Positions 1-21,340 of a DNA stretch of 22,585 nucleotides are shown piece by piece. The notes beneath the pieces were generated by a model. That model was not told where the DNA came from. It ran no database searches and was given only the letters and a program-made list of their open reading frames with translations. Position 1 is the stretch's first letter. Each line of letters starts with the position of its first letter. The stretch comes from a virus. The stretch spans positions 1 to 22,585 of the IMG/VR virus record IMGVR_UViG_3300029952_001682; one strand, written 5' to 3'. Both the position numbers and the translations under genes were made by a program.

Positions 1-3000
1 TCAGGCATCCGCGCCTCCGGAGTTTTCCGCGTAGCTGGAGTTTACGGCGGCGCGAATCACATGTTTGTTGGCCATCAGCCATTGCATGCCCGACTTCGTA
101 TCGAGCGAGTGAACGTGCAAATGCACATCTCCTCCTGTTTCGCTGGAGGCTGGCATCTTAGTGCTATCAGCGCCGTAATACTTGGCCATATCGGAGTGAG
201 TCGCGCCAGAACGAATAGCCTCAAGTGCGCCCGCATGCTCCGCCGCAGGCTGTTCGTTCACGACAAACTCATTTGCCCGCATGTGCATCCATCCAGTGTC
301 CGGACCTGTTGCCATGCTGCCAAAGTTTTCAGTCCATCCCCCTTGATGGCCTTGCGCGACCGTCGCTGTGAAATGACTACGCCCCGCTTTCTGCTCGGCT
401 GTGAATTTTTGCCCAGCCTCGCGAAGTTCTTTTTTCATGGTGTCTTGGTAGTAGCTAGAGGCGGCTGGTCCATAGGAACTGGTGGTTTTCTTGGCTTCCA
501 TGTCCAAGCTCTGGATGTCGCTATATGCGGACAAGTAATCCATCGAACCCTGCTGATAGCTTTGGTTGTCGTTAGCAATACGCGGACGCACTTGCTTCAG
601 ATCGTAAGCGCGCGCTTTCTCGCGCCCACCAAAACCAAATGCACCGAGCACCGCGCCGCCAACCGCGCCAACTACCGCGCCCACCGGACCAGCAACCGCC
701 ATGCCGAGTTCCATGCCGCTCATTGCGCCACTCATTGCTCCGCCCACGCCGCCGTTGCCCTCGAAGGCGGAGTACACCCCAATGGCTCCTTGAGCACCGC
801 TCATGGCGGTTTGCATCTTGCCCGCGCCACTGGCCATGCCTGCTGTGCCAGATGCGGAACTCAGATCACCCGATGCGGAGCTGGCGGCACTCGGACTGCC
901 GTCGCCGATAGAAGTGCTGGAGTCTCCTGCCACGCCGCCAGCTACCATATGAGGTCCAGATCCCATTCCCGTTCCGTCGCTTGCGGAGGGATTGGATGAA
1001 TCCGTTGTGTTGCTCGCGGGCGTTTTCTTCGAAGCGCCGAAATCAGCTTTGGCCTGTTTGGAGAAACCTATTCCCTGACTCACATAGTTCAGTGCTGTGC
1101 CGAATACATTCCTATGTGTGGGCACTATGCCAGGAGTGCCGGTAGTGCCCACCGGACCGCTGCTCGTGGACTCCGGATCTCCAGCGCCGCCGCTGGCACC
1201 CACACCAAGGCCAGTGTCGCGGCCGCTTGAGGATTGTGGACTGGCGAAAGAGCTACCGCCAAGTCCAGCTTCGCTGCTGCCTCCGGTCGGCGACCCAGAG
1301 AAGCTGCCACCGCCGTGGCCGAACCCCATGATAGAGGGCATACTGCTGACATCGGTGCCACCGTCCACACCAAGGCTCGCATCGCTGCTCACAGTGCCGC
1401 TTCCGCGAGAGGACGAATACACAGGTCTGAAAGATGAACCGGAGGCCACGCCGCCAGTTGCGCCGCTGCTGCCCGATGCGATCAGCCCCGTGCTACCGCC
1501 TGACGTCGACCATGTCTGTCCTGCGCCGCCAGCCGTCGAGGGTACGCCGCCCATGCCAATGTTGGCGCTCTGGATGTGGATCTCGGCGGTGCTGAGAGAA
1601 ATCGCCTTCAACGAAGAAACAGAAGAGGCAAGATCCGGATGCGTAGACGCATGGTTTGAGCCAACGCCTTTTGGATGGCCAGCCATGCGATCAAACAAAC
1701 CACTCAGCATCGAGCCGCCCCCCAGCGGTTCATTCGCGCTGGCACCTTTGCCGCCGTAGTGATTCTGAATGCGCTGGGTCATGGCTGCCGCGGCCTCACC
1801 GGCAAACTTGTCGCCTACATCTTGCAAATACTTCAGCGGATGATCCATCCCCTTGAAGAAACTCGTGTACTCGCTGGCCATCTTTTCGCGCGCCTGCCGG
1901 GCGGAGTCCACGAGCTGAGCGTCACGAAGCTGCCCCGCAGCAACTGCACGTCGGTCGTAATCCTGCTGGGAAATCTCCTGCTGCTTCAGTTCTTCATTGT
2001 ATTTATGCAGTCGCTCCTCATATTCCGATTCGATCGCAGCCGTCTGATTCTTCTCAGCCGACATCAATTTTGCCCGCGCCTGTGATTCGATCTGCTCGGT
2101 CTCTTCAGCGTTCTTGCGCGAAAGCTCTGACGATTGCCGACCTGCCCCACTATCGATCGCAGTTAATCCGCGCCCAAATTGGTCCGTATCCTTGTCGAGT
2201 AGAGTCTGCGCGCCAGGTGCGCTCAAATCCATCAGTTCATGCATAGTATCGAACCGCTTTTGCAGATCATCTTTCGCTTTTTGCGCCTCCGCTTGAATGC
2301 GCGCAAATCCTCCCAACTCGCGCTCCTGAGATTGCTCGACGATCCGATCAACCTCTTCGGCGAATCCTTTCTGAACGGTCCCAATCTCGGCAGTTGTATC
2401 CCGTCCGGCGGCGGCAACACGCTTCGCGCGTTCCTCTGGCAAAAGTTCGTTGTGTGGATCAATTTCAGCTACATGGGCCGCTCCTTCGGCCTGAACCTTG
2501 GCAATTCCCGTCAGCCCGGCCATTCCAGAAGCGCGCTCGATCTTTTCGGTTTCGCGCCGTTGATCGTCCAGCATCCGCTTCTCTTCAGAGAAATACTTTG
2601 CGTCAATTTGCTTGCGGGCCTCCGCTGAACTTCCGTGTTGGCGGGTCCATTCCGCGTCAGCCGATTTCCGCTTATCTTCAAGCAGCGCAATCCCATGCAG
2701 TTCTGCTTGTCGCGCTTCATCTCTTAGGTGAGCGATTTCATTCGATGTGGTACGTTCCATGTTGAAACTTTCAGCGTTTGCTTTTTGGTCCGCGATCGCA
2801 TCAAGGGTTTTTTGCCGCGACATCCCGGCATCAGGGCTTACTTTGTCTCCCCTCATCCCTTCTTCCGCTGCCATGTATTTACGATTTTCCTCATTAATCG
2901 CATGTTGTTTATTCTTTTCTGCGGTGATCTTCTGTTCGCCGCGTAGGCGTCCGTCTGAGGCGTAACTGAGGTCGATGGCATCGAGAATTGCCTGGTGATT

Positions 3001-3696
3001 CTCCGAAGCAAGCTTTGGTGTCATGGCATCGACCTGTCCTTGCTTTTTATAGCCAGCGTCGGCCATCTTCCGAGCGCCATAGGTATCCATAATTCCTGCC
3101 TGGAGACCTCCCTGTGGGCCGCCCATAAGCATCCCATTTGCAATATCACTCCAGAGACTCTGATGCATTTGCTGTGCTGTTTGCTGAAATCCTTGGGCAG
3201 CAGAAGTCGCTTCTTTGATGCGCTCAGTGGCTGTCTCTATATCGCGAACGTTGATGAAATCTTCGTCCTTAGCTTTGTCTACTTGTTTTTGGTATGCCTC
3301 TGCGGCAGCGGTCAGCGAAAGGTAATTTTCCCAGAGTTTCTTCGTGCCTTCATAGAGTTGCTCGAATACCATCGCACCGATCTGGATTGCGCCCAGCCCG
3401 ATCATCGCCGAACCCAGAGCACCCAGCGCGGCCTGCGCAACTTTGCTTTCGGCGACGATGCCGCGGAATGCGCGCGGCAGGCGGATGCCGAATTCCTCGG
3501 TAAGCAGATGGACTTTTTCCTTGGCGCTCATTGCCCCAGTGCCAGCCTCCTCCATACCTTGCTTCATGCGCTGGCCGGTGGTCGCGCCGGCCGCGCCGAG
3601 CTGATTGATGTTCTGGACGACCTTCGCCACCGTCTCGCCGGAGTTGCCGTCGACGACATTGATCGAGATTTGAACCGCAGAGGTTTCTACCGCCAT
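1..3696 (-). CDS. Phage tail tape measure protein
   Basis: A 1231-residue protein, complete: its stop codon occupies bases 1-3. It would set tail length and be threaded through the tail tube; at roughly 0.15 nm per residue this suggests a tail near 185 nm (inference). Seen in order: a mixed N-terminus, a hydrophobic stretch at about residues 86-115, a long charged, Glu/Lys/Gln-rich probable coiled-coil part (about 130-640), a Gly/Ser/Ala-rich low-complexity part (about 650-970), a glycine-zipper-like hydrophobic stretch (about 990-1025) and a short C-terminal domain. Length, composition and position after the tail tube and chaperone-position genes identify it; no single catalytic motif is involved, and I see no lysozyme or peptidase domain. 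It starts 3 nt after the stop of the upstream zinc-ribbon gene, so the two are co-translated or nearly so. Plus-strand reading frames within it are shadows. Confidence 0.88.
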   Translation of the reverse strand: MAVETSAVQISINVVDGNSGETVAKVVQNINQLGAAGATTGQRMKQGMEEAGTGAMSAKEKVHLLTEEFGIRLPRAFRGIVAESKVAQAALGALGSAMIGLGAIQIGAMVFEQLYEGTKKLWENYLSLTAAAEAYQKQVDKAKDEDFINVRDIETATERIKEATSAAQGFQQTAQQMHQSLWSDIANGMLMGGPQGGLQAGIMDTYGARKMADAGYKKQGQVDAMTPKLASENHQAILDAIDLSYASDGRLRGEQKITAEKNKQHAINEENRKYMAAEEGMRGDKVSPDAGMSRQKTLDAIADQKANAESFNMERTTSNEIAHLRDEARQAELHGIALLEDKRKSADAEWTRQHGSSAEARKQIDAKYFSEEKRMLDDQRRETEKIERASGMAGLTGIAKVQAEGAAHVAEIDPHNELLPEERAKRVAAAGRDTTAEIGTVQKGFAEEVDRIVEQSQERELGGFARIQAEAQKAKDDLQKRFDTMHELMDLSAPGAQTLLDKDTDQFGRGLTAIDSGAGRQSSELSRKNAEETEQIESQARAKLMSAEKNQTAAIESEYEERLHKYNEELKQQEISQQDYDRRAVAAGQLRDAQLVDSARQAREKMASEYTSFFKGMDHPLKYLQDVGDKFAGEAAAAMTQRIQNHYGGKGASANEPLGGGSMLSGLFDRMAGHPKGVGSNHASTHPDLASSVSSLKAISLSTAEIHIQSANIGMGGVPSTAGGAGQTWSTSGGSTGLIASGSSGATGGVASGSSFRPVYSSSRGSGTVSSDASLGVDGGTDVSSMPSIMGFGHGGGSFSGSPTGGSSEAGLGGSSFASPQSSSGRDTGLGVGASGGAGDPESTSSGPVGTTGTPGIVPTHRNVFGTALNYVSQGIGFSKQAKADFGASKKTPASNTTDSSNPSASDGTGMGSGPHMVAGGVAGDSSTSIGDGSPSAASSASGDLSSASGTAGMASGAGKMQTAMSGAQGAIGVYSAFEGNGGVGGAMSGAMSGMELGMAVAGPVGAVVGAVGGAVLGAFGFGGREKARAYDLKQVRPRIANDNQSYQQGSMDYLSAYSDIQSLDMEAKKTTSSYGPAASSYYQDTMKKELREAGQKFTAEQKAGRSHFTATVAQGHQGGWTENFGSMATGPDTGWMHMRANEFVVNEQPAAEHAGALEAIRSGATHSDMAKYYGADSTKMPASSETGGDVHLHVHSLDTKSGMQWLMANKHVIRAAVNSSYAENSGGADA

Positions 3697-3699
3697 GCG

Positions 3700-4146: not shown

Positions 4147-4876
4147 TGTCCTCACTGAAGTTGGCGGCGGCCGGGGAGAAGAGAATGTCGGCGGCGGCAA
4201 CCTTGTGGTAGGTGTCCATTTCGGCGACGATGGCGTCGCGATCCGCGTCCAACTCCACGCCATTCACCTGATAGCCGTCCACGCTCACGATCAGCTCGTC
4301 GTAGAGTTCCACCAGCGTCGGCTGCGGCCCAATCCACAGCGTTTTGCCTTTACGCGATCCGCCCACGATGCGTGAGCGGCTAGAGTCACGCGAGAAGCGG
4401 TGCTGCTGCTCGCCGTTGGGAGTCTTGAACCGGTGGCAGAGGCCGCGATATTTCTGCATGATGCCTTTGTCGTCGGCGCTCCACACCGCGTTGAGATAGA
4501 CAGCCTCCGCGCCAAGCACGATCGGCTCATCGTCGCTGGGCTCGGCGCGCTCGACGGACACGATGGCATTGGCGGCTCCGAGGCGGTGCGAGAGTGGCAG
4601 CAGCGATTGCCAGTCAGCCGTGGCCGTCACCGGCGAACCGTCCACCGTGACGTAGCCCTGCGCGTCGATCAGGCTTTTTTCTACCAGCTCGATGCGAGCA
4701 GAGCTGGAGTCGAAACTATCGACGCGTTTGCCGCCCTGATTTTCAGAGGCAGAGACAATGCCGTCGAAGTAGTGCATCCACTGATTTTTGGTGATGCGCG
4801 AGAGGGTGAGGGTAAACTGCTTTCCGCGTTCTTCGATCACGATGACGCGGGGCGTTGCAAGCTCGATAGCTGACAT
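4139..4876 (-). CDS. Putative tail-module protein (tail assembly chaperone position)
   Basis: A 245-residue protein. I chose the ATG at 4876 because an AAGGA ribosome-binding site lies just upstream and the earlier open frame runs through intergenic DNA and the terminator of the tail tube gene. The protein begins with a beta-rich segment and is acidic overall, with an Asp-rich C-terminus. No family is recognised. Its place between the tail tube and tape measure genes suggests a tail assembly role. The leader (AGAAAGAAGGA) closely resembles that of the gene starting at 8364, so both genes after the two most abundant structural proteins carry the same kind of initiation signal. Confidence 0.65.
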   Translation of the reverse strand: MSAIELATPRVIVIEERGKQFTLTLSRITKNQWMHYFDGIVSASENQGGKRVDSFDSSSARIELVEKSLIDAQGYVTVDGSPVTATADWQSLLPLSHRLGAANAIVSVERAEPSDDEPIVLGAEAVYLNAVWSADDKGIMQKYRGLCHRFKTPNGEQQHRFSRDSSRSRIVGGSRKGKTLWIGPQPTLVELYDELIVSVDGYQVNGVELDADRDAIVAEMDTYHKVAAADILFSPAAANFSEDND

Positions 4877-5010
4877 AGAGAGTCCTTCTTTCTGGAATGG
4901 GATTGAGATTTGCGATTCTGCCGGTACCAGGGTGAAGAACCCTGTCTTGCATGAGGTTCGCGGAGTGGGGCGAAGCCTCACCGCGGCGAAGGGGTGCCAC
5001 GGCTGTTGCG
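4877..5010. other. Leader between tail tube terminator and next tail gene
   Basis: About 135 bases without a convincing gene. It holds a short possible hairpin (GGTGAAG... with ...CTTCACC-like arms near 4930-4980) and, next to the downstream gene, its ribosome-binding site. A new promoter could lie here to restart transcription after the terminator, but I cannot point to convincing -35 and -10 boxes. Confidence 0.3.
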
Positions 5011-5049
5011 GAAAAAAGAGGGCGCGCCGCCCTTGATCCAACGCGCCCT
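5011..5049 (-). terminator. Rho-independent terminator after the tail tube gene
   Basis: Read on the minus strand, an 8-bp perfect G+C stem (5042-5049 pairing with 5019-5026, arms AGGGCGCG and CGCGCCCT) with a 15-nt loop is followed by CT and a run of six T (bases 5012-5017 of the plus strand are A). It lies 24 nt after the tail tube stop codon. It would partly uncouple the tail tube gene, whose product is needed in many copies, from the genes downstream. No tail-tube coding sequence crosses it. Confidence 0.7.
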
Positions 5050-5072
5050 TTGGAGAAACTTGAAAAATCTGT

Positions 5073-6089
5073 TTACGCACCCACCAGATACGCAGGCACG
5101 GCGTTGACGACGCTGACCGAAACCGCAGGAACGCCCGCCACGCTGTAGCAGGTGGTCTCATCCGCTTCAATCTGCCAGATGATCATGTCGCCGTCGAAGC
5201 CCACCTTGGTGGTTTTCAAATGCGCCTGTGGAATCGAGATCACCAGTTGCGCAGCCGCGCCCGAGTTGGCGGTCAGCGTATACGCCGAGGCGGTATCGTT
5301 CTCGAAGAGCGTAAAGATGTCGTCCACGTCTTTGGCTGCGATCGTCGTCGTGATCGAGAACTTCGGATTGCCCTTGCGAACGTAGATGCCGTACTGGCCA
5401 CCCCCCGGAGCCTTGTGCACCGTGAGCTGATTTTCAGCCTTGAATGTCGTGCTCATGTGGCGGCCGACCATTGAAGCCGGAGCGCCGACCGGGCCAAGAG
5501 TGAGAACGGCGTCGGAGCCCAAGATATAGGAGTCCGAGGGCAGCGCGGGAAGTGGCGCAATCGCGCCCATCACCTGGCGGCCGGTTCCCATCAGCGTGGA
5601 CTCGGCCATGATGGCGCCGATGTCGTTGATGGTGAGCGTCACATCGTTGACGCACATATCCGGGCACTTGTATCTCACGTCCTCGGTGTCTTCGAGATAG
5701 ATCGTTGTGGCCACTGCGGTACGTGTGCTCTCATCGAAGGCGAAGGTGTGCGTGTAGGGCGACGCCGCGCCCACTACCGTGTCTTTGCCCATCAGGAAGC
5801 CCAACAGCCATCCGGCCAGCCATGGAGTCAATTCAGCCTTGAAGCCAGAGAACTTGGTGTCATAGCTGGTGACCTGTCCGTTGGTGGCGAATGCCGTTTG
5901 CTTGCCGGCATAGTCGATGTCGGAGCGTCGCGTCTCGGTCACCTCCAACACTGCGCCACCATCAAAGCGCTGTGCGCGCGTGAGAGCTGCGGAAGCGAGC
6001 GGAGTATTCCACGCGAGCTGCGAATTGACGCTGAGCAGCAGGTTGCGTGCGCTTTTCCATTGGGAATTGAAATTGAACGGTCCGGCCAT
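5073..6089 (-). CDS. Major tail tube protein (siphovirus type)
   Basis: A 338-residue beta-rich protein with many Thr, Ala, Val and Gly and few charged clusters, as usual for tail tube subunits. The ATG at 6089 directly follows the stop of the upstream small tail gene. It follows the gp36, gpG and gp37-type genes, where a Mu-like myovirus would have its sheath (gpL) and then tube (gpM). There is no sheath-like gene here, which argues for a long non-contractile tail. It is followed at once by a strong terminator, fitting a highly expressed product. The call rests on composition, position and size rather than on a diagnostic motif. Confidence 0.7.
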   Translation of the reverse strand: MAGPFNFNSQWKSARNLLLSVNSQLAWNTPLASAALTRAQRFDGGAVLEVTETRRSDIDYAGKQTAFATNGQVTSYDTKFSGFKAELTPWLAGWLLGFLMGKDTVVGAASPYTHTFAFDESTRTAVATTIYLEDTEDVRYKCPDMCVNDVTLTINDIGAIMAESTLMGTGRQVMGAIAPLPALPSDSYILGSDAVLTLGPVGAPASMVGRHMSTTFKAENQLTVHKAPGGGQYGIYVRKGNPKFSITTTIAAKDVDDIFTLFENDTASAYTLTANSGAAAQLVISIPQAHLKTTKVGFDGDMIIWQIEADETTCYSVAGVPAVSVSVVNAVPAYLVGA

Positions 6090-6090
6090 A

Positions 6091-6432
6091 TTACTTGCTC
6101 CCCTTTACTGCTGCGGATTTTGGTTGAGTTTCGACCTGCGCATCGAGCGAGGCTTCTTCGGTTTTGAGCGTGCTCGGTTGATCGGCGACGCTTGCGCCCT
6201 GCGCCACGTTGACGACGACGGCGGGCGTCAGTTCGAGAATCTTCTGGCCATTGACCGTCTCTTTCGAGAGCGTTTTAGCCCATTCGCTGGTCAGCACGCG
6301 CGTGCCTCCAGCCGCCGTGAATGCGTAGCTGAAGTGCTGCGTGGTGACCGTGATGGTTCCGCTTGCGCCCGCGACCTGGACGCCGGCGGCGCTGAGCTGT
6401 ACATCGACGAAATCGGATTGAGCGGTTGCCAT
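6091..6432 (-). CDS. Small tail-module protein (Mu gp38 position)
   Basis: A 113-residue protein counted from the ATG at 6432, which has AGGAAC 5 nt upstream. A GTG at 6444 overlapping the upstream stop would add four residues. The first two thirds are Thr/Val/Ala-rich and probably beta-stranded; the C-terminus is acidic then basic and probably disordered. It lies between the gp37-like gene and the tail tube gene, where Mu has the small gp38. No function can be read from the sequence. Confidence 0.6.
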   Translation of the reverse strand: MATAQSDFVDVQLSAAGVQVAGASGTITVTTQHFSYAFTAAGGTRVLTSEWAKTLSKETVNGQKILELTPAVVVNVAQGASVADQPSTLKTEEASLDAQVETQPKSAAVKGSK

Positions 6433-6440
6433 ATTGTTCC

Positions 6441-6938
6441 TCACTGCCCCGGTTGGGCATTCGCGCCGCTGAATTGGGCGATGCCTTTGACGAGCACCAC
6501 GATTGAAAACAGTTGATCCACCGGCCCCTCTTCCGATGCCACGAGGGAAACGCTCTTCATCTCGATCGGCATCGTCCGCGACCCGTCGGCCAGCGCCAGG
6601 CGTGCGCCGGCAAGTTGATCCTGCACCGTTGCCACCAGCACCAAAGTCTGCCTGCGCTCGTCAGCCTTGGAGCGGAGCGAAGACTCGAAGCACAACAACT
6701 CAAACGGCAAGCCACCCTCGTAAGTCAGGCGCTGGTTATCATGCAGATTTTCGTAATCCGCAGCGGCAAAACGCACACGGACCGATGGCGGCTGCAACAC
6801 CAAACGCCCATCGTCATCGAAATCCTTGTCGCCCAGGGAGTCGATGTTGACCTTGGCGCCATAGGCCGTGGCCAGCTTGGAATTCAGAACCGCCAATAGG
6901 GCGGCTTCGACATAATCGATGCGGAAGGTCGAACTCAC
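6441..6938 (-). CDS. Mu gp37-like protein (DUF1834 type)
   Basis: A 165-residue protein starting at a GTG (6938) that overlaps the gpG-like stop codon in a GTGA. The N-terminus, with a short helix and then a segment ending in LPFELLCFESS, followed by an Arg/Lys-rich helix and a beta-rich C-terminus, fits the gp37/DUF1834 family that follows the gpG gene in Mu-like phages. Such proteins are thought to be involved in the tail terminator or head-tail joining region. Order and size agree with the family; the identification is by pattern, not by a catalytic motif. Confidence 0.65.
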   Translation of the reverse strand: MSSTFRIDYVEAALLAVLNSKLATAYGAKVNIDSLGDKDFDDDGRLVLQPPSVRVRFAAADYENLHDNQRLTYEGGLPFELLCFESSLRSKADERRQTLVLVATVQDQLAGARLALADGSRTMPIEMKSVSLVASEEGPVDQLFSIVVLVKGIAQFSGANAQPGQ

Positions 6939-7675
6939 TGTGCGCCTCCCAGTCCGGCATCGTGCTTAGCCTTGTTCACGTACTGCACGACGATGCCGCG
7001 AATCCGTTGCGGATCTTCTGGCCGGAAGACAAGATAAGGACGCGGCGGAATATTCTGGTGGCGCTCATGCGCGCTCACGCTGGTCATGTTGCGCGGTCCA
7101 ATGCGTCTGATTCTCTCTGTCACCAGGTTGCGAGGCCCGGTAAGCCTGGTCCGGAGTGTTGGGCGTCGTTTGCCTTCTAACGCTGGACCTTCCAACCGCG
7201 TGGCCGCGTAGCCCGGCCCTGCAAGCCGTGTGCGGCTACCGGAAAACTGAGTCTCCAAGCGTCCGTGCTCACCGACCTTGATCGTGGCCTCGATCTGCTC
7301 TTTGGTCTGCGGACCGATTGCTACGCCGCGATCGCGCGAGCCAAATTGATGTACGGGCGCGTATTTCAGTACGGTCCCAATCACCACGCCGTTTCCCTGG
7401 ACGGCGTAGGTAATCGAATTCAACAGCGTTCCTTTGCCGATCAGCAGCTTGTGACCAGGCCCGTAGCGCTTCGGATCGCGCTTGATGGTGTTCGGCGAAA
7501 GCGGCACCCAGGAGTTGGCCGGCGATCCCTGCTCGCGGAAGGTGCGACGAACCGAGACGAGCTGCGACGCTCCGATCTCACGCATCAGCTCGTAGTGCTG
7601 CTGAAGCGACAAGCGGAACTTGCCCAGCGCCACCACCACGCTGCTGTCATCGACTTGGATTACTTCCGTCGCCAT
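6935..7675 (-). CDS. Virion morphogenesis protein, Mu gpG / P2 gpS-like, with basic repeat insertion
   Basis: A 246-residue protein from the ATG at 7675. Family signs are the early helical part, the YAPVHQFGS segment (about residues 105-113) and the C-terminal PPRPYLVF motif (210-217), typical of the phage virion morphogenesis family that completes tails. Between these landmarks the protein carries a basic stretch with four loose repeats of the form (R/T)xR(L/I)xGP at about residues 148-154, 158-164, 175-181 and 188-194. That makes it clearly longer than usual members, which are around 150-190 residues. It starts 3 nt after the stop of the gp36-like gene and overlaps the next gene by 4 nt. 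Confidence 0.82.
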   Translation of the reverse strand: MATEVIQVDDSSVVVALGKFRLSLQQHYELMREIGASQLVSVRRTFREQGSPANSWVPLSPNTIKRDPKRYGPGHKLLIGKGTLLNSITYAVQGNGVVIGTVLKYAPVHQFGSRDRGVAIGPQTKEQIEATIKVGEHGRLETQFSGSRTRLAGPGYAATRLEGPALEGKRRPTLRTRLTGPRNLVTERIRRIGPRNMTSVSAHERHQNIPPRPYLVFRPEDPQRIRGIVVQYVNKAKHDAGLGGAQ

Positions 7676-7678
7676 CGC

Positions 7679-8167
7679 TTACATCCCATACCAGTTCGGA
7701 AAATAGCCGCCACGCTGATCGTGATCGCTGCCCGTGTATCCGTCCAGGTTGCGATCACTGAAGCGCTCCGGCTTGCGTGTTACTACAGCCTCGCCTGATG
7801 CTGATTGAGCCTGCTGCGCCGTTACCGGCTGGTCGAGCGAAGCCCTCCCAGCCGAAATGTCTTTCAGAAACGCAATCGCCTGGTCAAAGCGCTGCTGGAC
7901 CGTGTCGCTGATGCGTGTCTCGCGGCGACGGCCGAACAACAGGTAGATAGTGATGTCAAGCGTGAGTGCCTTCACATCGTCGGATTGCTGCAGCGGAGTG
8001 ATATACCGCTGTCGGCAGTAGCTTTCCACGCGACCTGACGCCTCTTCGAGCGCAGCGCTAACCACGTCCGTGTTCACCTCCCCGGTGGACTCGTCGTCAG
8101 TCAGCTCAACAAGATCCTTCTGCGTAAGCCGTAGGGGGACAAGATCGTCTTGGGTCGCGTAGGCCAT
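7679..8167 (-). CDS. Mu gp36-like protein (DUF1320)
   Basis: A 162-residue protein with the usual DUF1320 opening (MAYATxDDL), a helical segment with a conserved RVESYCRQRY-like part at about residues 45-55, then a VKALTLDITIYLLFGRR helix and a Gln/Ala-rich, mobile C-terminus. DUF1320 proteins are head-tail joining proteins of Mu-like phages and normally follow the capsid region. Here the gene is separated from the capsid remnant only by one small gene. Start ATG at 8167, two bases after the upstream stop. Confidence 0.85.
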   Translation of the reverse strand: MAYATQDDLVPLRLTQKDLVELTDDESTGEVNTDVVSAALEEASGRVESYCRQRYITPLQQSDDVKALTLDITIYLLFGRRRETRISDTVQQRFDQAIAFLKDISAGRASLDQPVTAQQAQSASGEAVVTRKPERFSDRNLDGYTGSDHDQRGGYFPNWYGM

Positions 8168-8169
8168 GG

Positions 8170-8364
8170 TTACTTCGCTTCCTCGGGAGCGGGAGCGGGT
8201 GCAACGTAGGGGGCAATCACTTTCAGCGCCAGCAAAGGCTGTGCTTGCGATGGAGTGAGGTCGATCTGCTCACCACGTTTGTAGATTTCGTTATCGTGAG
8301 AAATCGGATGCAGCGCGGTATAGGTCGCCGGTACACCATCGTCAACTTTCTTTTTGCCTGCCAT
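8170..8364 (-). CDS. Small head/connector-region protein (Mu gp35 position)
   Basis: A 64-residue protein with a Lys-rich start, a compact middle of the form (xxHDxxxYxxGExIxLTxxQAxxLLxxxVI) and an Ala/Pro-rich C-terminus. Small proteins of this kind, in which a short beta-rich segment is followed by a helix, commonly sit directly after the major capsid gene in Mu-like phages. The AAGAAGGAG ribosome-binding site at about 8368-8376 is strong. Function not known. Confidence 0.65.
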   Translation of the reverse strand: MAGKKKVDDGVPATYTALHPISHDNEIYKRGEQIDLTPSQAQPLLALKVIAPYVAPAPAPEEAK

Positions 8365-8395
8365 GACTCCTTCTTTCTCTGTGTGAAAGGTGAAG

Positions 8396-8434
8396 TGCGC
8401 CGCCCATCCGCTGCTGAAGCTTCCAGACGGCGCA
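8396..8434 (-). other. Hairpin between capsid remnant and next gene
   Basis: A 7-bp perfect inverted repeat (TGCGCCG at 8396-8402 and CGGCGCA at 8428-8434) encloses a 25-nt loop that itself holds a near-palindrome around AAGCTT. No T-run follows, so a terminator is not supported. It may stabilise the mRNA end of the capsid gene. The flanks also carry a short direct repeat GTGAAGTGC (8390s and 8439-8447). Confidence 0.35.
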
Positions 8435-8450
8435 TTCTGTGAAGTGCAAC

Positions 8451-8984
8451 TTAGGCGACCGCGTTGGCGAACAGGTAGCCAGCTTCAGGCGCGGTGATGT
8501 TTTCCGTCGAGTACCAGTCCACGCCCAGCAGATCAGCCTTGGCCGTCGCGTCCGGATGCCGCGCGATAATCACGCCGTAGCCGTCGATGGTCAACGGACC
8601 ATCCGTCCAGACAAAGCTCTTGCCAAAGCTGATGTCCTTCGGCCCCACTTGACCTTCCGCCCCGATCACGCCCGCGTTCATCACCGAAGGCGCAACGTAA
8701 GCCAGAATGGCGTTCTTGCCCCAGAGGAAGCTCTGAGTTCCGTCGCCGTTGTCCTTGATGCTGGCAGCCACAACGACCTTATCCACGCCAAAGACTGTCG
8801 CCAGTTCCTGCGGTCCGATGACGCCCACCTGGGTGTACTTGATGCGCGCCAATGCTGAGCACCCCCAGCCCGATTCGAAAATTGCCTGGGCGATGGTGAT
8901 CGAGGCAGGCACGCCCGTCGCGCTCTGTGAGGCAATCGCCGCTGGTACCGCTTCATGGAAAAATGTCGATTGAATTTCGTTCAT
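8451..8984 (-). CDS. Chimeric ORF: FlgJ-type glucosaminidase N-terminus fused to major capsid protein C-terminus
   Basis: A 177-residue protein from the ATG at 8984; a TTG at 9002 in the same frame would add six residues. Residues about 8-47 match the start of the bacterial and phage glucosaminidase domain: FFxEAVPAAIASQxxTGVPASITIAQAIxESGWG, followed by SALA. Homology stops near residue 47. From there (IKYTQVGVIGPQELATVFGVDKVVVA, then WGKNAILAYVAPS and a C-terminal PEAGYLFANAVA-like end) it reads like the last about 130 residues of the major capsid protein of Mu-like siphoviruses. The join lies near 8840-8850. Neither half is complete: the lysin lacks most of its domain and the capsid lacks roughly its first half. 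I infer an in-frame deletion that removed the DNA between a lysis gene and the capsid gene. The product is unlikely to work as either protein. Confidence 0.72.
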   Translation of the reverse strand: MNEIQSTFFHEAVPAAIASQSATGVPASITIAQAIFESGWGCSALARIKYTQVGVIGPQELATVFGVDKVVVAASIKDNGDGTQSFLWGKNAILAYVAPSVMNAGVIGAEGQVGPKDISFGKSFVWTDGPLTIDGYGVIIARHPDATAKADLLGVDWYSTENITAPEAGYLFANAVA

Positions 8985-9013
8985 CGCCGTCCCCGCCTTC
9001 AATCAGGAGGCCG

Positions 9014-9048
9014 GGCGCAACAGGTGGTTACAAAGCACCTGTTGCGCC
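9014..9048. repeat. 13-bp perfect hairpin upstream of the lysin/capsid ORF
   Basis: GGCGCAACAGGTG at 9014-9026 pairs perfectly with 9036-9048 around a 9-nt loop. It is enclosed by a second inverted repeat (AGGAGGCCGG at 9005-9014 and its complement at 9077-9086). No T-run follows on either strand, so this is not a standard terminator. Its place in the 5' leader of the leftward structural mRNA suggests control of translation or mRNA stability, or a protein-binding site. Confidence 0.6.
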
Positions 9049-9066
9049 ACGGACACTCTGCTCTGG

Positions 9067-9105
9067 TTACTTCACACCGGCCTCCTTTCGGATGGACTCG
9101 GTCAT
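9067..9105 (-). pseudogene. Possible C-terminal remnant of a phage gene
   Basis: The minus strand has an open frame ending in TAA at 9067-9069 whose last residues (from an internal ATG at 9105: MTESIRKEAGVK) look like a natural protein end. The frame continues upstream without a stop into the terminator hairpin of the next gene, where coding looks unlikely. It may be what is left of a gene that preceded the lysin gene before the moron block was inserted. It is too short to be sure. Confidence 0.25.
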
Positions 9106-9185
9106 GCGTTCAGATGCCAGAGTAAGGCGCGGCAATGCCACACTGGGGAGCAGTGGGAAGAGACGAAATAGATGCAATAAAAGCA

Positions 9186-9212
9186 ATCGCCGCTCGTGAT
9201 TCGAGCGGCGAT
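9186..9212 (-). terminator. Rho-independent terminator of the repressor/moron operon
   Basis: TCGCCGCTCG at 9187-9196 pairs perfectly with 9202-9211 around a 5-nt loop, with one further A-T pair outside. On the minus strand the stem is followed by TTGCTTTTATT, a T-rich tail. It lies about 37 nt after the stop of the membrane protein gene, the last gene of the leftward repressor operon. Confidence 0.7.
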
Positions 9213-9248: not shown

Positions 9249-9830
9249 TTATAGCTTATGATTCCAGATTACAGTGGGGGCCTTAGTTCCTTCAAAAGGA
9301 GATCTCGCCCCTTTATTCAGACGAAGTTCTGAAATAGGGGAAGAAATATCCCTTTCGTCATTCATCGTGAAAAATATCAGATCGCCAGTTTTCGCACCCG
9401 CCGGAGCGATAATCAGCCCGTTAAATCCGACTGCCCCAGCGCAAGAATAAGGACATACACTGGAAGTTTCAGGAAGGTCAGCAAGGACTTCCACTATCGG
9501 GCGCGGATGATCCAATTCAAAACGGATATAAGACACCCGGTCTACCGGATGAAGTTTAGAATTCGTAAAATCAGGGTCATAAGTAATCGATATTCTATAT
9601 TCGTTCGTTGCTGTTTTTCGCCAATAAATATCCCACCCAACACCTGAGTCTGAATTCAATTGGGATGCTGGTGGTCCCGCCATTTCACGCACCTCCGCTC
9701 TCGTGCTCCCAACGCTAAACTTGATGGTCTTTGGGGGCGGAATCGATGATTTGCTGTGCAGTCTTACATAAGAAAAAACGAGGACTGCTCCTATTAGAAG
9801 AAAGATCAATAGGACCAAGATGCGCTTCAT
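9249..9830 (-). CDS. Membrane-anchored hypothetical protein (moron candidate)
   Basis: A 193-residue protein with one N-terminal hydrophobic segment (about residues 4-21, after MKR) and the rest presumably outside the cytoplasm. The segment IKFSVGSTRAEVREMAGPP (about 36-54) resembles the start of BamE/SmpA-type folds (VGxTxxEVxxxxGxP), but this is a weak likeness. The DNA is richer in A+T than the flanking phage genes. It is the last of three leftward genes after the repressor, so it should be expressed in the lysogen; a role in superinfection exclusion or another change to the host envelope is possible but unproven. A terminator follows. Confidence 0.6.
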   Translation of the reverse strand: MKRILVLLIFLLIGAVLVFSYVRLHSKSSIPPPKTIKFSVGSTRAEVREMAGPPASQLNSDSGVGWDIYWRKTATNEYRISITYDPDFTNSKLHPVDRVSYIRFELDHPRPIVEVLADLPETSSVCPYSCAGAVGFNGLIIAPAGAKTGDLIFFTMNDERDISSPISELRLNKGARSPFEGTKAPTVIWNHKL

Positions 9831-9856
9831 GCCTTCTCACTTTCCGATAGGTGGTT

Positions 9857-10477
9857 TCATCTTTTGCTCATAACCGAACGGTAGAGTAGCTCAAGATCAG
9901 CATCGCATAGATTTATCATCGACACCTCGTTGAATTTCTCTTTCATGTATTTAATCCGCCATTCTTCCCACCCGCGTTGTTTGCAGCGTGCGTGAATAGC
10001 AGCAATGCGTTTACTGCGCCAAGCAGGATTTTTCTTCGGAGCCGAAACCATCCCTAAAAAGATAGCCTCCCGTTTCTTCAGATACTTGCATGCCCCGTCG
10101 AAATCCTCCTTAAGGATTTCATCGTACTTATTCACGCTCATATGGATGTCCAGTTGTTTCCACACGACCTTATGCGTCAGAGGAGTCCGCTTTGTGGCCG
10201 AAGCCTGTACCACGCTATCGACCAGCGTGTGAATCTTTGCTTTCTGCTGGGCGGTAAGTACACCATCGCCCGTCTTCACGATCACATTCGGCGGAGCTAT
10301 TTTTTCGATACGAATACTCTGGTCGTAGAAATTCCCGCCCACAATTCTATTCGAGCTGCCACCATTGATGGTGACGGACCTTCCCGTTTTTGTGGCGCAC
10401 TCCTCGTCAGTTGGCTCAGCTTCACCTAAAATATCCCTTACCTTCTTAACAACACGCAACTTCCCCTCATCGTTCAA
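9857..10477 (-). CDS. ORF6C-domain-like regulatory protein
   Basis: A 206-residue protein. Residues about 78-140 (helix, then VVWKQLDIHMSVNKYDEIL, then a helix ending in YLKKREA) resemble the ORF6C domain found at the C-terminus of phage antirepressors and related regulators (pattern WxxLxxxxxVxxYxxI...). The N-terminal part carries an NGGSSNRIVGGNF segment like the Gly/Asn repeats that link domains in some phage regulators. The basic C-terminal part (about 150-206) is not recognised. It lies 39 nt downstream of the repressor gene on the same strand, so a role in immunity or its relief is likely. Confidence 0.6.
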   Translation of the reverse strand: MNDEGKLRVVKKVRDILGEAEPTDEECATKTGRSVTINGGSSNRIVGGNFYDQSIRIEKIAPPNVIVKTGDGVLTAQQKAKIHTLVDSVVQASATKRTPLTHKVVWKQLDIHMSVNKYDEILKEDFDGACKYLKKREAIFLGMVSAPKKNPAWRSKRIAAIHARCKQRGWEEWRIKYMKEKFNEVSMINLCDADLELLYRSVMSKR

Positions 10478-10516
10478 TTTCCGGTCTCCGTAAAACGCTT
10501 GTCGATGCGTTCCAGC

Positions 10517-11011
10517 TCAGGCAATTTTCAGCAACCTACCAACTATTGACGAGTCACGCCGACCCGACTCCTGACAGAACTCATAGAAAAGGACCACCAA
10601 TTCCGCATACTTTTGAATGGGAAGCTGCCGCTTCCTTTTTTTGAGTTCCAGATCTAGCGCCTCGATCACATAAACCAGCAGATCTCGATTTAAAGTGCCA
10701 CCTGCGGAAGGAACATATTCAGTTGAGCTTGATTCCTCCTCCGCTGCTTTGAGACGCGCAGCAAATTCCGGACCGGCTTGTTCATACCACCAATGTTTGT
10801 CATCGACCGATATGTCTCCGATCTTCATCAAGGCCAATGGCGGAGGACGGTATTCCCCCCTCTCCCATTTAGACAGGACAGATTGAGAAATCCCTACGAG
10901 CCCTGCGAAAGTTCGCTGATCGAGGCGCAGCTTCTCTTTTCTGAGGGCAAGTAGCCGTTCAGAGACAGAAATCGAGTCAATATGAATATTTTCCTTGACG
11001 ATGTGAGTCAT
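10517..11011 (-). CDS. XRE-family phage repressor
   Basis: A 164-residue protein with a helix-turn-helix of the lambda/Cro (XRE) type at about residues 33-57 (RTFAGLVGISQSVLSKWERGEYRPP, with the WERG recognition-helix end), followed by a helical segment and a charged C-terminal half that may serve oligomerisation. No LexA-type Ser/Lys peptidase motif is seen, so induction by RecA-driven cleavage is not supported. It is divergent from the early operon with only 26 bp between the two start codons, as expected for a Mu c-type lysogeny repressor. It probably binds the palindrome at 11021-11047. Confidence 0.82.
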   Translation of the reverse strand: MTHIVKENIHIDSISVSERLLALRKEKLRLDQRTFAGLVGISQSVLSKWERGEYRPPPLALMKIGDISVDDKHWWYEQAGPEFAARLKAAEEESSSTEYVPSAGGTLNRDLLVYVIEALDLELKKRKRQLPIQKYAELVVLFYEFCQESGRRDSSIVGRLLKIA

Positions 11012-11023
11012 TTTGACTAATCT
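10995..11023 (+). promoter_or_regulatory. Possible early promoter
   Basis: TTGACG at 10995-11000 (5 of 6 to the -35 consensus) is followed after 17 nt by TAATCT at 11018-11023, a poor -10 box. Transcription would begin near 11030, giving a nearly leaderless mRNA for the gene at 11038, and the -10 region would overlap the palindrome. Spacing is ideal but the -10 match is weak. Confidence 0.35.
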
Positions 11024-11047
11024 TGCTCTTAACCGTTATGAGCAAGA
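11021..11047. promoter_or_regulatory. 27-bp near-perfect palindrome, probable repressor operator
   Basis: Arms TCTTGCTC (11021-11028) and GAGCAAGA (11040-11047) are perfect complements. Inside them TAAC (11030-11033) and GTTA (11035-11038) pair around a central C at 11034. Only the pair 11029/11039 is mismatched. The site fills the gap between the divergent repressor and early genes and covers the start codon of the first early gene, so a bound dimer could block both transcription and, through position, access to the start site. Confidence 0.72.
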
Positions 11048-11271
11048 ATTTTTCGCGACAAAAAACGTGCCTCAAGAATAGCAGTTCGAGCCCTGAGCTG
11101 CTCAGGGCTTTGGCCTATGTTGGCCTCTTCACACGGGTCGCCGACAGAGAATCCCTATCTATTGGCCATGTGGTTCAAGTTGCCAAAGGTCGGCGCACCT
11201 CCAAGCGAGTCATCGATGCCATCGTCCGCGAGGTACGCCGGATCGAACAGAGCACGGAGCGCGCGGCATGA
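11038..11271 (+). CDS. Small HTH protein, first early gene (Ner/Cro position)
   Basis: A 77-residue basic protein from the ATG at 11038; a TTG at 11023 would lie inside the operator and adds nothing recognisable. The C-terminal half (LSIGHVVQVAKGRRTSKRVIDAIVREVRRIE) has the shape of a small helix-turn-helix domain and is clearly related to the one in the gene at 11696: both have HVxxVAxGxxTSxRV followed by ExRRI. As first gene opposite the repressor it occupies the place of Mu ner or lambda cro and may turn down both promoters. Confidence 0.65.
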   Translation: MSKNFSRQKTCLKNSSSSPELLRALAYVGLFTRVADRESLSIGHVVQVAKGRRTSKRVIDAIVREVRRIEQSTERAA

Positions 11272-11699
11272 CTGAAGACTTTGCCAGAAAGATGCTCCCG
11301 CATATACGACAAGGAACGGCAGATTACGTGTGCCTGAACCCTTTCTACAACTGGGGTCGCCTTACAGCAGACAGACGGATAGAGCCGTTTCTTTACCGGA
11401 GTTTGGTCGAGAAAGTTGCGCTCCGGACTGGGCGTCCCATGCGCCGAATCCGCGCCCTTATTTGTTTTCGCAATCCCTTTCAATCTCCGGCAGCTTCCGT
11501 TGTCGTTCGATACACAGACGAAACCTCCCATAGAGTGCCTCTCTTCTGGGGGCCAGTCTGGTTTTCCACATCGAGCGATTGGCTGATCTGCCGCGCGGCC
11601 TGCGAGGTTTTGGCTGAGATGGAAGCGGAATATAAGCGCGAACATCGGCAAAAATCGCCAGCCAGGAAAAATCAGCGGAAATCGGAGCGCGCGGCATGA
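11268..11699 (+). CDS. Hypothetical early protein
   Basis: A 143-residue protein joined to its neighbours by ATGA overlaps at both ends. It has a compact, aromatic-rich middle (several Trp, Phe and Tyr) with RYTDETSHRVPLFWGPVWF at about 80-98, then an amphipathic helix and a Lys/Arg-rich tail. No family recognised. It is placed between two genes with related small HTH domains, which suggests a regulatory or DNA-associated role at most. Confidence 0.6.
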   Translation: MTEDFARKMLPHIRQGTADYVCLNPFYNWGRLTADRRIEPFLYRSLVEKVALRTGRPMRRIRALICFRNPFQSPAASVVVRYTDETSHRVPLFWGPVWFSTSSDWLICRAACEVLAEMEAEYKREHRQKSPARKNQRKSERAA

Positions 11700-12025
11700 C
11701 GAATCTGAACGCATCACGTCTTCCTGAGTTCTTCTGCGCGCTGGGGCAGTTGCTGGGTGAAACTACTTTGCCAACGCCCCCCAATGAAGCGCAGGAGGAA
11801 CTGTCTGATTTCCTTGCTGACCTGCGACGGATGCAGAAGTTTTATGGAATCTTTTCCAGCGTAGGTCGCCTCACCGGAACAACTCCGCAGCATGTGCGCC
11901 ACGTTGCGCTTGGCCTTACCACTTCTTCCCGAGTTATGGCGGTACTCGAACAGGAGTACCGGCGAATTCAGCAGGAACTCGGGGAGAGCGAGCAACTGGA
12001 CCAGAAGAACGGCAACGCGGCATGA
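11696..12025 (+). CDS. Small HTH protein, paralogue of the first early gene product
   Basis: A 109-residue protein. Residues about 45-95 (FSSVGRLTGTTPQHVRHVALGLTTSSRVMAVLEQEYRRI) align with the C-terminal half of the 77-residue protein encoded at 11038-11271, sharing the HVxxVAxG and TSxRV landmarks. The N-terminal half is helical and unrelated. ATGA overlaps with both neighbours. Probably a DNA-binding regulator. Confidence 0.6.
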   Translation: MTNLNASRLPEFFCALGQLLGETTLPTPPNEAQEELSDFLADLRRMQKFYGIFSSVGRLTGTTPQHVRHVALGLTTSSRVMAVLEQEYRRIQQELGESEQLDQKNGNAA

Positions 12026-12528
12026 GCAAATCGTTTTCATCACGTACCCAGTCTCCCGCCAGAGCCTCCGGTGTGTCACCGGCTAATTTTGGAGGGATTT
12101 CGACCGTCCAGACCCAGCCTTCTCTCTTCGAGAACCATCTGGATGCACTTCCTGGCAGTCTGAACGATTCCGCTATGGTCCGTGCGGTCCTCATTCAGTC
12201 CATCCGCAATTGCGACAAAAGCCGCGCCCAGATTGCGGAAGACATCACTTTTTACTCTGGCCGCGAGGTCACGGAAATTTCCCTAAACAAATTTACCGCC
12301 GAGAGCCGGACAGACTACCGCTGGCCCGCTGAACTCGACCGCGCCTTCTGCCGCGCCGTCGGCGACGATACGCTGCTGCGCTGCCGCGCCGAGTTGGCCG
12401 GATACCACGTCATTGACTCCACCGAAGCTGAACTACTTGACCTGGGTCGTGAATATCTCCGCCAGAAGCGCGCCAGCGAAAAGGTAGCACTTCTAGAAAA
12501 AAGACTCGCGGGGGTGGAACTAGCATGA
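12022..12528 (+). CDS. Conserved protein upstream of Mu-type transposase, function unknown
   Basis: A 168-residue protein. After a Ser/Pro-rich mobile start (1-45) comes a compact segment: a helix with SIRNCDKSRAQIAEDI, then EVTEISLNKFTAESR, YRWPAELDRAFCRAVGDDTLLRCRAELAGY and an EAELLDLGREYLRQKR helix (about 130-150), ending in a short coiled coil. The combination of a cell-wide HTH-like first part and a WPAELxRAFCxAxGDxxLLRC motif is of the kind found directly upstream of MuA-type transposases in other transposable prophages; its biochemical role is not known to me. Overlaps both neighbours by 4 nt. Confidence 0.6.
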   Translation: MSKSFSSRTQSPARASGVSPANFGGISTVQTQPSLFENHLDALPGSLNDSAMVRAVLIQSIRNCDKSRAQIAEDITFYSGREVTEISLNKFTAESRTDYRWPAELDRAFCRAVGDDTLLRCRAELAGYHVIDSTEAELLDLGREYLRQKRASEKVALLEKRLAGVELA

Positions 12529-14579
12529 GTGCCGCCGCTGCATCTCCCCAATTCTCTTTGGTAGTCAGCTCTGCTGAAAAATGGCTTTCGCCATCAGAAG
12601 CAATAGCCGCAACTGGTTGGACTGAACGCTGGCTGCGCATCAAGGCTCAACTGGGCGAAGTCGTCAGCCGCTCGTCTCCAAAGAAATCCGCGAATGGCCG
12701 CCCCGTCCGTGAATATCTTGCCAGTTCGCTGCCTCAAGCCGCGACGCAAACTCAACTTGCAGTGGTTCCCCCATCCGGCGCGCAGTTCGGTCCCCTCTTT
12801 GCCGGCGTCCCGACCATCACCGGGCAGCGCATCACGTTGCCCGATCCCGATGCCCAGGCACAGGCCGAGCATCGTCTGGCCATGATCGAACCACTACTGC
12901 ATTACGCCGAGAACGCCACGCGGCTTGCGCATCTGCAGTTGCCTGACGGCCGGTATGTCACATCACTCACCCGGCTGATTGAGCACATCTCCATTTGCAG
13001 TCCCAAGCCCGTCAGCGTGCGCACCCTGAAAGATTGGCTGGGGCGCTACCGCAAAGGCGGATTTGCCGCCCTGGCTGATCGCGTTCGCGCCGACAAGGGC
13101 GTTGCGCGCTGGGCCACTCAGAGCCCCCAGCACGCCGAGCTAGCTGACTTGGCCGCCTACGCCTACCTCAACGAGCAACTCAACAAGCGCACCGCTTGGG
13201 AGATTGTCGATTGCCGGGCCAAGCAACTTCAGATTGAGCCGCCCAGCTACGAATCCCTGCGTACCTACCTGGAAAAGCTGCCCCCGGCCGTCAAGACGCT
13301 GGCTCTCAAAGGCCGCGACAAATACGACGATCTCTTCGCGCCTTACGTCCGGCGCGGCTACACCGACTTCGAGGCGGGCGAGATCCTCGTCAGCGATCAC
13401 GCCTGGCACGACGTGCTGGTGCAAAACGATCTCTTCGACGCTAAAGACCGACAGCACCTACGTCTCCGGTTTACCGGCCTTCAGGACATGCGCAGCCGCA
13501 AGTTTGTCGCCTATGCCTGGTCGCAGGATGGCTCCTCGCGGTCGATCAATACTTGCCTGCGCCACATGCTCGAAACCTATGGCACCTTCCGCGAGTTCTA
13601 CTGCGACAACGGCAAGGATTATCTGAAGGTCGGCAAAGGCGCACGTGGACCTGAAGTGGAATATCTGCCACCAGAAGCGCAGGGCGTTTTGGCTCGGCTG
13701 GGTTGCAGGGTCACTTTCTGCCAGCCCTATCATGGCCAGTCAAAGCTGATTGAATCCGCCAATCACATCATCCACCAGAGCTTCGATCGCCGCTGGGCGA
13801 CCTATTGCGGCCCAACCTTCGAACAGCGCCCCGACCGCTGCTCAGCCGCGCTGGAGCGGCACAAAAAGCTGCTTGCCCAGGGCCGCGCCGACGAATCCGA
13901 ACTGCCCCTGGCCAGCGAGTTCATCCGCGCAGCCATCTTGTGGATCGAGCAGGAATACAACTTGCGTCCGAAAAATGTGCCGGGCATGGAAGGCCTCAGC
14001 CCCAACGAGGCATTCGAAAAGTTTCGCTGGCACGGCTCGAAGCCTGCTCCTGAGCCGCACATCCTGGCCGCGCTGCTGGCCGAGCGTGCCCTGCGCATCG
14101 TCCACGAGTGCGCCGTGAAAATGGATAACCGCCGTTTCGTCGGCGTGGACGAGCCCAGCCAGCGGGCGCTACATGACCGCACCGGGCAACAGATCATCGT
14201 GGCCTACGACCCGCTCGACCTCAACGCACTGGCAGCTATCGACGAAGACGGTTGTGTCTTCGCCTACCTGGAGCCGGAGACTTTCCTGCGCCAATCCCGA
14301 GACAACGAAACCCAGGAAGCCATCGCCGCCAGTATGCGCGAGCGCCAGCACCGCTACCACGAAACGCGCGATCAGCTCAACGACCTGGGCCGCCGCGTGC
14401 TCGGTACCGGCTACATGCCGCAGCACAATCAAATGCTTCAGCTTGGCCGCCTGCCTATCGATATTGAGCAGCTTGTCGTCCACCGCCCGCAGCCCACCAA
14501 ACTCCAACCCACCACCATCACAGCGCCGGCCACACCGGCGGAAGCTGCTCGACTCTTCAGGGAGGGACTCAAAAAGTGA
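12525..14579 (+). CDS. Mu-type DDE transposase (MuA-like)
   Basis: A 684-residue transposase that would cut phage ends and join them to target DNA. Domains in order: an N-terminal HTH/winged-helix DNA-binding part (about 15-75), further helix-turn-helix DNA-binding segments (about 150-260, with SVRTLKDWLGRYRKGGFAAL), the RNase H-like catalytic core and a C-terminal beta-barrel (about 535-590, QQIIVAYDPLDLNALAAI). Catalytic residues can be placed at Asp291 (in SDHAWHDV), Asp361 (in YCDNGKDY) and Glu410 (in SKLIESANH); the spacings of 70 and 49 residues are close to those of MuA. The C-terminal tail would contact the ATPase encoded next. It begins in an ATGA overlap and its stop overlaps the GTG of the ATPase gene, so the two are made together. 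Confidence 0.95.
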   Translation: MSAAAASPQFSLVVSSAEKWLSPSEAIAATGWTERWLRIKAQLGEVVSRSSPKKSANGRPVREYLASSLPQAATQTQLAVVPPSGAQFGPLFAGVPTITGQRITLPDPDAQAQAEHRLAMIEPLLHYAENATRLAHLQLPDGRYVTSLTRLIEHISICSPKPVSVRTLKDWLGRYRKGGFAALADRVRADKGVARWATQSPQHAELADLAAYAYLNEQLNKRTAWEIVDCRAKQLQIEPPSYESLRTYLEKLPPAVKTLALKGRDKYDDLFAPYVRRGYTDFEAGEILVSDHAWHDVLVQNDLFDAKDRQHLRLRFTGLQDMRSRKFVAYAWSQDGSSRSINTCLRHMLETYGTFREFYCDNGKDYLKVGKGARGPEVEYLPPEAQGVLARLGCRVTFCQPYHGQSKLIESANHIIHQSFDRRWATYCGPTFEQRPDRCSAALERHKKLLAQGRADESELPLASEFIRAAILWIEQEYNLRPKNVPGMEGLSPNEAFEKFRWHGSKPAPEPHILAALLAERALRIVHECAVKMDNRRFVGVDEPSQRALHDRTGQQIIVAYDPLDLNALAAIDEDGCVFAYLEPETFLRQSRDNETQEAIAASMRERQHRYHETRDQLNDLGRRVLGTGYMPQHNQMLQLGRLPIDIEQLVVHRPQPTKLQPTTITAPATPAEAARLFREGLKK

Positions 14580-15523
14580 CCCAACTCGCCAACAACACCA
14601 CGGATCTTCGCCCGCTCGTAACTGATTACCTGCGCCGCTCTGGCATGTCGTCGGAAGATTTTGCGATCCGCATCGGCTACAACTACAGCACCGTGGCGCA
14701 ATACCTTTGCGGTCGCTACAGCCGCATAGCCAAAGCCGACCAGATCAATGCCGCGATTCTTGCCTTCATCACAGGCAACCCAATCACCTCAGATCAACTC
14801 ACGACCAAGATCTACGAAACCAGCGCCGTCCGAACAATGCGCAGCCTCTTTCATAAAGCCTTGGAACGGCCCCAGGTCTACATGGTCTATGCGCCTCCGG
14901 GTTCGGGTAAAACCGACGTGGCGCGCCACCTGATCGCCGAGCACAACGCCCAGAGCGCGGGGCAGCCCAGCTACATCTTCCGCGTCTACTGCCGCGCCCG
15001 CATCTGCCCTCGCGACTTGATGAAGCGCGTGGCCACGGCATGCGGCGCGCACTCCAGCACCGCCATCGACCGCGCCATCCATAATCTGCGCTGGGATTTT
15101 CGCGGTGCGCGCGTAGTGCTCTACTTCGACGAGTCGCAGCATCTGAGTATTCCCGCCTTCGAGACGGTACGCGAGCTGCTCGACGAAGAGCCACGCTTCT
15201 CGCTGATCTTTGCTGGATCGCACGAACTGGAAAAGACCTTCACCGATTTCTCGGGAACACTGGAGCAGCTTCAGCGCCGCATCACTGACAAGGTCCATCT
15301 GCCCGCGCTCACCGCCGACGAAGCCGCTGGCATTCTGCGCACCGAGCTGGCCGAATTCTCACTCGATGCCGCAACCATCCGCCAGCAGATTGAATTGGCC
15401 ACCATCACCGTGCGCGTGGACAAGCGCAATCAGCGTTACATCTCCATCGGCCGCCTCATGGCCGCAATCCGCGAGATCCGCGACGGCTTGGCCGCCACTC
15501 CCGAACCCGCTTTGCAGAACTAG
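14576..15523 (+). CDS. MuB-like AAA+ ATPase (target-capture protein)
   Basis: A 315-residue protein starting at GTG 14576, overlapping the transposase stop, with GGGAGGG upstream. Residues about 20-60 form an XRE-like helix-turn-helix (DFAIRIGYNYSTVAQYLCGRYSR). Walker A is PPGSGKT (Lys112, Thr113), Walker B is VVLYFDE (Asp185, Glu186), and FAGSHEL near 210-217 fits sensor 1. This is the arrangement of MuB: an N-terminal DNA-binding domain plus an AAA+ ATPase that polymerises on target DNA and stimulates the transposase. Length matches the family. Confidence 0.92.
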   Translation: MTQLANNTTDLRPLVTDYLRRSGMSSEDFAIRIGYNYSTVAQYLCGRYSRIAKADQINAAILAFITGNPITSDQLTTKIYETSAVRTMRSLFHKALERPQVYMVYAPPGSGKTDVARHLIAEHNAQSAGQPSYIFRVYCRARICPRDLMKRVATACGAHSSTAIDRAIHNLRWDFRGARVVLYFDESQHLSIPAFETVRELLDEEPRFSLIFAGSHELEKTFTDFSGTLEQLQRRITDKVHLPALTADEAAGILRTELAEFSLDAATIRQQIELATITVRVDKRNQRYISIGRLMAAIREIRDGLAATPEPALQN

Positions 15524-21331: not shown

Positions 21332-21340
21332 CCTCGTACC

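Follow-up and report, generated by a model that had tools for sequence, protein, structure and literature searches.

An in-frame endolysin–capsid hybrid gene as the probable scar of a deletion in a Mu-like phage of Acidobacteriota

Introduction

Illegitimate recombination in E. coli is independent of RecA and relies on short homologies (PMC11372144). Defective prophages and lambda bio-type deletions produced in this way in E. coli are joined inside genes, at short or no homology (PMC11372144), and in this respect they resemble the locus described here, although the microhomologies cited for the E. coli events are about 9 bp (PMC11372144) and the present join shares at most 3 nt. This locus lies in a 22,585-nt IMG/VR virus record, the whole of which was analyzed and is referred to as the window. 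Among described phages, D3112 and MP29 have a related transposase A and RcapMu and RR1-B have a related major head protein, but all four are distant (22–35% identity over the four phages).

Two close relatives provide the reference for the window. The first is a phage in a Terracidiphilus sp. MAG (JARLFZ010000028.1, 41,162 bp; Acidobacteriota), which has the gene order of the whole window, with divergent early and late blocks and the same lysin and capsid families. Unlike the window, it encodes a complete lysin and a complete capsid protein, 9.8 kb apart, with the packaging genes in between. The second is IMG/VR contig 3300047661_000048, with tail proteins 81–95% and an ATPase 98% identical in amino acids to those of the window. 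It likewise differs in having a complete lysin and capsid, with 10.7 kb between the positions of the breakpoints, and its capsid protein is more distant (70%). All three have the late genes running one way, with the genes for the transposase, the ATPase and repressor-type proteins on the other side.

Results

A Reading Frame Assembled from Two Unrelated Genes

The open reading frame of interest (table 1) can also be read from an alternative TTG start at 9002, which gives a frame of 183 amino acids at 8451–9002 (minus strand). Residues 20–61 of this longer form match positions 2–43 of the 123 positions of the Glucosaminidase profile (PF01832, E 7.4e-9), and the N-terminal 53 residues by themselves match it with E 1.5e-8. 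The C-terminal 131 residues by themselves match positions 197–315 of 315 in the 'major head protein' family phrog_1005 (E 3.3e-17) and no family in Pfam. The two matches meet at one place, at about residue 47, the lysin part comprising the first 46–47 residues in ATG numbering, and a two-family match of this kind is far beyond chance. A sequence-only reading of this DNA had proposed that a lysin N-terminus is fused in frame to a major capsid C-terminus at about residue 48, at 8840–8850, and had suggested separate searches of the halves; these searches bear out the fusion, and the location was accurate.

Neither parental protein is complete. The hybrid lacks the full Glucosaminidase domain of about 123 positions (the lysin of the relative matches 2–122) and, of a Mu-like major head protein with about 315–326 amino acids, retains just the C-terminal ~130 residues, so that roughly 60% of the capsid protein is absent. 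AlphaFold2 models were too poor to use, both for a full-length capsid relative (pLDDT 38.5) and for the hybrid (pLDDT 32.9). The hybrid protein holds fragments of both folds and is most likely non-functional.

Table 1. Features of the window around and beyond the hybrid gene, with leader copies in relatives
Feature	Coordinates	Strand	Basis
Chimeric ORF	8451..8984	minus	177 aa from ATG; two unrelated family matches
Endolysin gene 5' remnant	8843..8984	minus	PF01832; Glucosaminidase start including ESGWG motif, remainder of domain gone
Major capsid gene 3' remnant	8451..8842	minus	phrog_1005; covers residues ~197–326 and the stop codon
Deletion junction, GCG CGC A/TC AAG	8841..8847	minus	CGC common to both parents; A from lysin, TC from capsid
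Retained lysin-gene leader	8985..9090	minus	Hairpin and outer pairing, upstream GGAGGCCGG able to pair with CCGGCCTCC; 94% identical to L077
Leader copies in relatives	L077 6968-7078; L157 481-591; L082 9898-10000; L085 9890-9990; L087 9876-9975		
DUF7210 small gene after capsid gene, intact and in place	8170..8364	minus	PF23843; syntenic in both intact relatives
Mu gp36-like head-tail adaptor, intact	7679..8167	minus	PF07030, phrog_195; synteny
Tail completion / virion morphogenesis protein, intact	6935..7675	minus	PF05069, phrog_26; synteny
Tail tube protein, intact	5073..6089	minus	PF18906; synteny
Long ORF at tape-measure position, reaching window end	1..3696	minus	Syntenic; putative tape-measure role from length and position
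MuA-type transposase, intact	12525..14579	plus	rve and Mu-transpos_C, both below curated cut-off; tblastn to D3112 and MP29 transposase A
AAA ATPase at MuB position, intact	14576..15523	plus	PF13401; 98% aa identity to relative
L077 and L157 are lysin loci of contig 3300047661_000048 (also L008, L009) and of the MAG contig (also L169, L170), respectively.

The Junction at Base Resolution

Homology to the two parents runs out within a few bases. On the lysin side, the window is 94% identical in nucleotides to contig 3300047661_000048 over 8843–9212, which spans the lysin start and its leader, and this identity ends at 8843; on the capsid side, DNA homology to the capsid relatives (the nearest one and the Terracidiphilus MAG) ends at 8846–8847. 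The residues at the join are Ala 46 (GCG, 8849–8847), Arg 47 (CGC, 8846–8844) and Ile 48 (ATC, 8843–8841). Past the same site, the lysin gene of contig 3300047661_000048 reads CGC AAA GCC AAC AAC TAT TTT GGC and encodes a complete protein of 168 residues, and the capsid genes read CGC TTC AAG TAC where the window reads CGC ATC AAG TAC. In the capsid relatives aligned across the site, the codon after Arg is mostly TTC and in none of them ATC. Given these capsid codons and the CGC AAA of the lysin relative, the Ile codon of the window is best read as a hybrid codon.

The join requires at most 3 nt of homology. Random joins of the same two genes share at least 3 nt in 6% of cases, and the join therefore gives little sign of homology. 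The longest exact word common across the join in any examined locus is 13 nt; such words occur in unrelated genes and were rejected as a source of homology. A two-step origin, with ATCAAG supplied by a GGCATCAAG that the lysin itself carries seven codons further on, was set aside, as a single breakpoint is simpler. The window sequence contains no Ns at the join. An open frame across such a join is a one-in-three chance.

One Interval Is Missing from an Otherwise Colinear Genome

The window is colinear with both relatives, protein by protein, and the sole large gap falls at 8842–8847; with the MAG contig the colinearity runs end to end, a diverged lysogeny region excepted. The breakpoints correspond to sites 10,710 bp apart in contig 3300047661_000048 and about 9.8 kb apart in the MAG contig. 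In the relatives, the missing interval holds a Gp27-like TerS, a TerL with Terminase_6N/6C, Portal_Mu, Phage_Mu_F, the rest of the lysin and capsid residues 1–196, as well as a 371–382-amino-acid protein that has no Pfam match and is, from its position, presumed to be the protease/scaffold. None of TerS, TerL, portal, MuF, protease/scaffold or the remaining parts of lysin and capsid occurs elsewhere in the 22,585-nt window. The terminase, Mu-type portal and MuF of an intact Mu-like phage are thus lacking in the window and found in the relatives, and with order and orientation preserved on both sides and one interval absent, the window has the structure of a deletion derivative. It retains a MuA transposase and a MuB-type ATPase beside a Mu-type head/tail cluster, the features of a Mu-like (transposable) phage, and its remaining late and early genes are free of frame breaks. 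The window is itself a fragment, and the lost genes could sit outside it, but the gap in synteny is internal to the window.

The lysogeny region (9249–12015; repressor-type genes and small open reading frames) is unlike that of both close relatives, with matching flanks, as in a mosaic cassette. Just upstream of the lysin, contig 3300047661_000048 carries a gene (L077 6239–6814, plus strand) that ends MuF-like (ESIYPPNGWACGCGVV), though this contig has another MuF gene at the usual position; its counterpart in the window is a set of unrelated genes (9249–10477). The capsid side is also mosaic (7296–8846): positions 3399–7072 are 90% identical to contig 3300047661_000048, which at the capsid end shows 70% amino acid identity, and the window's capsid end is 97% identical in amino acids to L003 and L004. 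After the early block, an open gene (21332–22585, plus strand) runs off the window end, with a signal-peptide-like start MHARILALIPLLASSLLCAQ, a collagen-like QGVQGIQGQ and, further on, GDSTLFG. The gene is conserved at the same place in the MAG phage; it resembles a fibre or SGNH-type protein, which is odd among early genes.

Relatives Carry the Two Parts Separately

The close relatives of the capsid part are six IMG/VR contigs with 70–97% amino acid identity, in every one of which the capsid protein is full-length (324–326 residues). The nearest of them, L003, is identical to the remnant at 97% of amino acids and 91% of nucleotides, up to 8846. In each of the five records that were searched over their full length (contig 3300047661_000048 and the MAG contig included), about 10 kb separates the lysin part from the capsid part, and four other host-family genomes show the same spacing. 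This makes nine genomes or contigs with 9–11 kb between the parts, in the order and orientation of the window, and it is what the sequence-only reading had suggested looking for, namely related prophages with the two ends several kb apart. That reading had taken loss of the region between lysis and capsid genes as the simplest account; the colinear relatives now support that account and give its size. In host-family genomes G052 and G124, both parts are placed deep within a long contig, where integrated prophages would be expected.

Full-length homologs with the same architecture, which would have spoken against a deletion, were sought in IMG/VR, in the lysin and capsid loci and in host-family genomes. 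No fusion was found in 80 lysin-relative loci, 66 capsid-relative loci or 300 host-family genomes, and the hybrid is not a conserved multidomain fusion among them. The lysin continues past the breakpoint in 76 of the 80 loci, and in the remaining four it runs to, or nearly to, the end of a contig or locus. Of the 66 capsid loci, 60 encode a full-length protein; the others are truncated by the end of a contig or locus or, in one case (L064), too distant for full alignment. An exact scan of IMG/VR with the junction 36-mer found no other contig. Four BLAST alignments that seemed to cross the join were rejected: L007 and L010 both encode a full capsid, L080 runs on into an ordinary lysin, and L156 was judged in the same way from its 38% match. 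Separately, one host-family locus (G259:C239:28958–29104) has a lysin match in a frame of 80 amino acids, where 150–290 is usual, and is possibly another broken lysin.

Substitution Patterns of the Remnants Resemble Those of Intact Genes

Between the capsid remnant and L003, dN is 0.010 and dS is 0.472, the differences being almost only synonymous, and the intact capsid pair L003–L005 gives similar values (dN 0.014, dS 0.579). The dN/dS of the lysin remnant, 0.27, falls inside the spread among intact lysins. Substitution rates equal to those of intact genes, the lack of decay and the absence of frame breaks in the remaining genes indicate that the deletion is recent. There is no sign of new selection, and nothing points to a new function.

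The Lysin Leader

Upstream of the hybrid gene, the leader of the lysin gene is retained. Its motif, CCAGAGC..GAGTGTC..GGCG-stem-CGCCCGGCCTCC, is found ahead of the lysin in six sequences, the window and five relatives, and a search of IMG/VR with the pattern returned five contigs only, all also among the retrieved lysin loci. The stems vary in sequence yet pair, with two-sided changes in 8 of 21 predicted pairs and a covariation term of only -0.25 kcal/mol. The window leader folds far better than shuffled sequences (z -4.5), the other copies less clearly so, and no Rfam family matched. The leader may represent a cis-acting RNA that is new and belongs to these phages.

Discussion

We propose that the hybrid frame is very probably a scar, left when a Mu-like phage or prophage of soil Acidobacteriota (a Terracidiphilus-like host) recently lost about 10 kb in one deletion. 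In such phages, the late genes are ordered lysin, regulator, TerS, TerL, portal, MuF, protease/scaffold, capsid, head-tail and tail genes. The lysin gene is broken between the first and second bases of codon 48, and the capsid gene at the same point of codon 197, whose last two bases remain. The ends would have been joined, in a prophage or in a replicating phage, by what we infer to have been illegitimate (homology-poor) recombination, with the frame staying open by the one-in-three chance noted above. The resulting element retains transposition and tail genes, but its packaging and portal genes are gone, as are a complete lysin and the greater part of the capsid gene. It should therefore be unable to build heads, package DNA or produce virions by itself.

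Against this reading, the junction occurs in one contig only, and an assembly or library artefact, that is, a chimeric read or a misjoin within one phage or of two related phages that produced a molecule that does not exist, is the alternative with most in its favor. The join is a single instance in IMG/VR, the window is an IMG/VR virus record, related intact phages occur in several samples, and the window is a mosaic whose lysin side is closest to contig 3300047661_000048 and whose capsid is closest to L003. However, an assembler k-mer would need a longer exact word across the join than the 13 nt found in the examined loci, no Ns mark the join, and order and orientation fit a simple deletion and not a random chimera. 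Since no long word is shared at the join, and genes on both sides keep their order and orientation, we favor a real deletion and consider an artefact unlikely; the deletion, we infer, is present in a living genome.

We consider it highly unlikely that the deletion is maintained in a helper-dependent or tail-only Mu-like derivative that has lost head and lysis, with the hybrid frame as a by-product. It is even less probable that the deletion was beneficial and that the element is a transposon with a tail module, on its way to becoming a tailocin, or a satellite that intact relatives would package. The tail-side genes and the transposase are indeed without frame breaks, and the losses are exactly the head and packaging genes, but the lysin, needed for release, was lost too, only one instance is known, and a recent deletion accounts for intact genes without selection.

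With the join in frame and the leader intact, the hybrid might in principle be expressed. A new role for the hybrid, for example as a capsid-derived segment carrying a wall-binding piece, nevertheless appears scarcely credible, and the sequence-only reading had held it possible but unlikely because both domains are cut. The frame is open and start and leader are retained, but the Glucosaminidase domain is truncated at position 43 of 123, some 60% of the capsid protein has been lost, the fusion is absent from every lysin or capsid relative checked, the substitution pattern is unshifted, and a one-in-three chance is enough to explain the open frame.

Automatic annotation may label the hybrid frame 'endolysin' or 'major capsid protein'. 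Read as a deletion scar, the hybrid gene should not be catalogued as a new capsid–lysin protein, and it would provide a base-resolved example of an environmental Mu-like phage turning defective.
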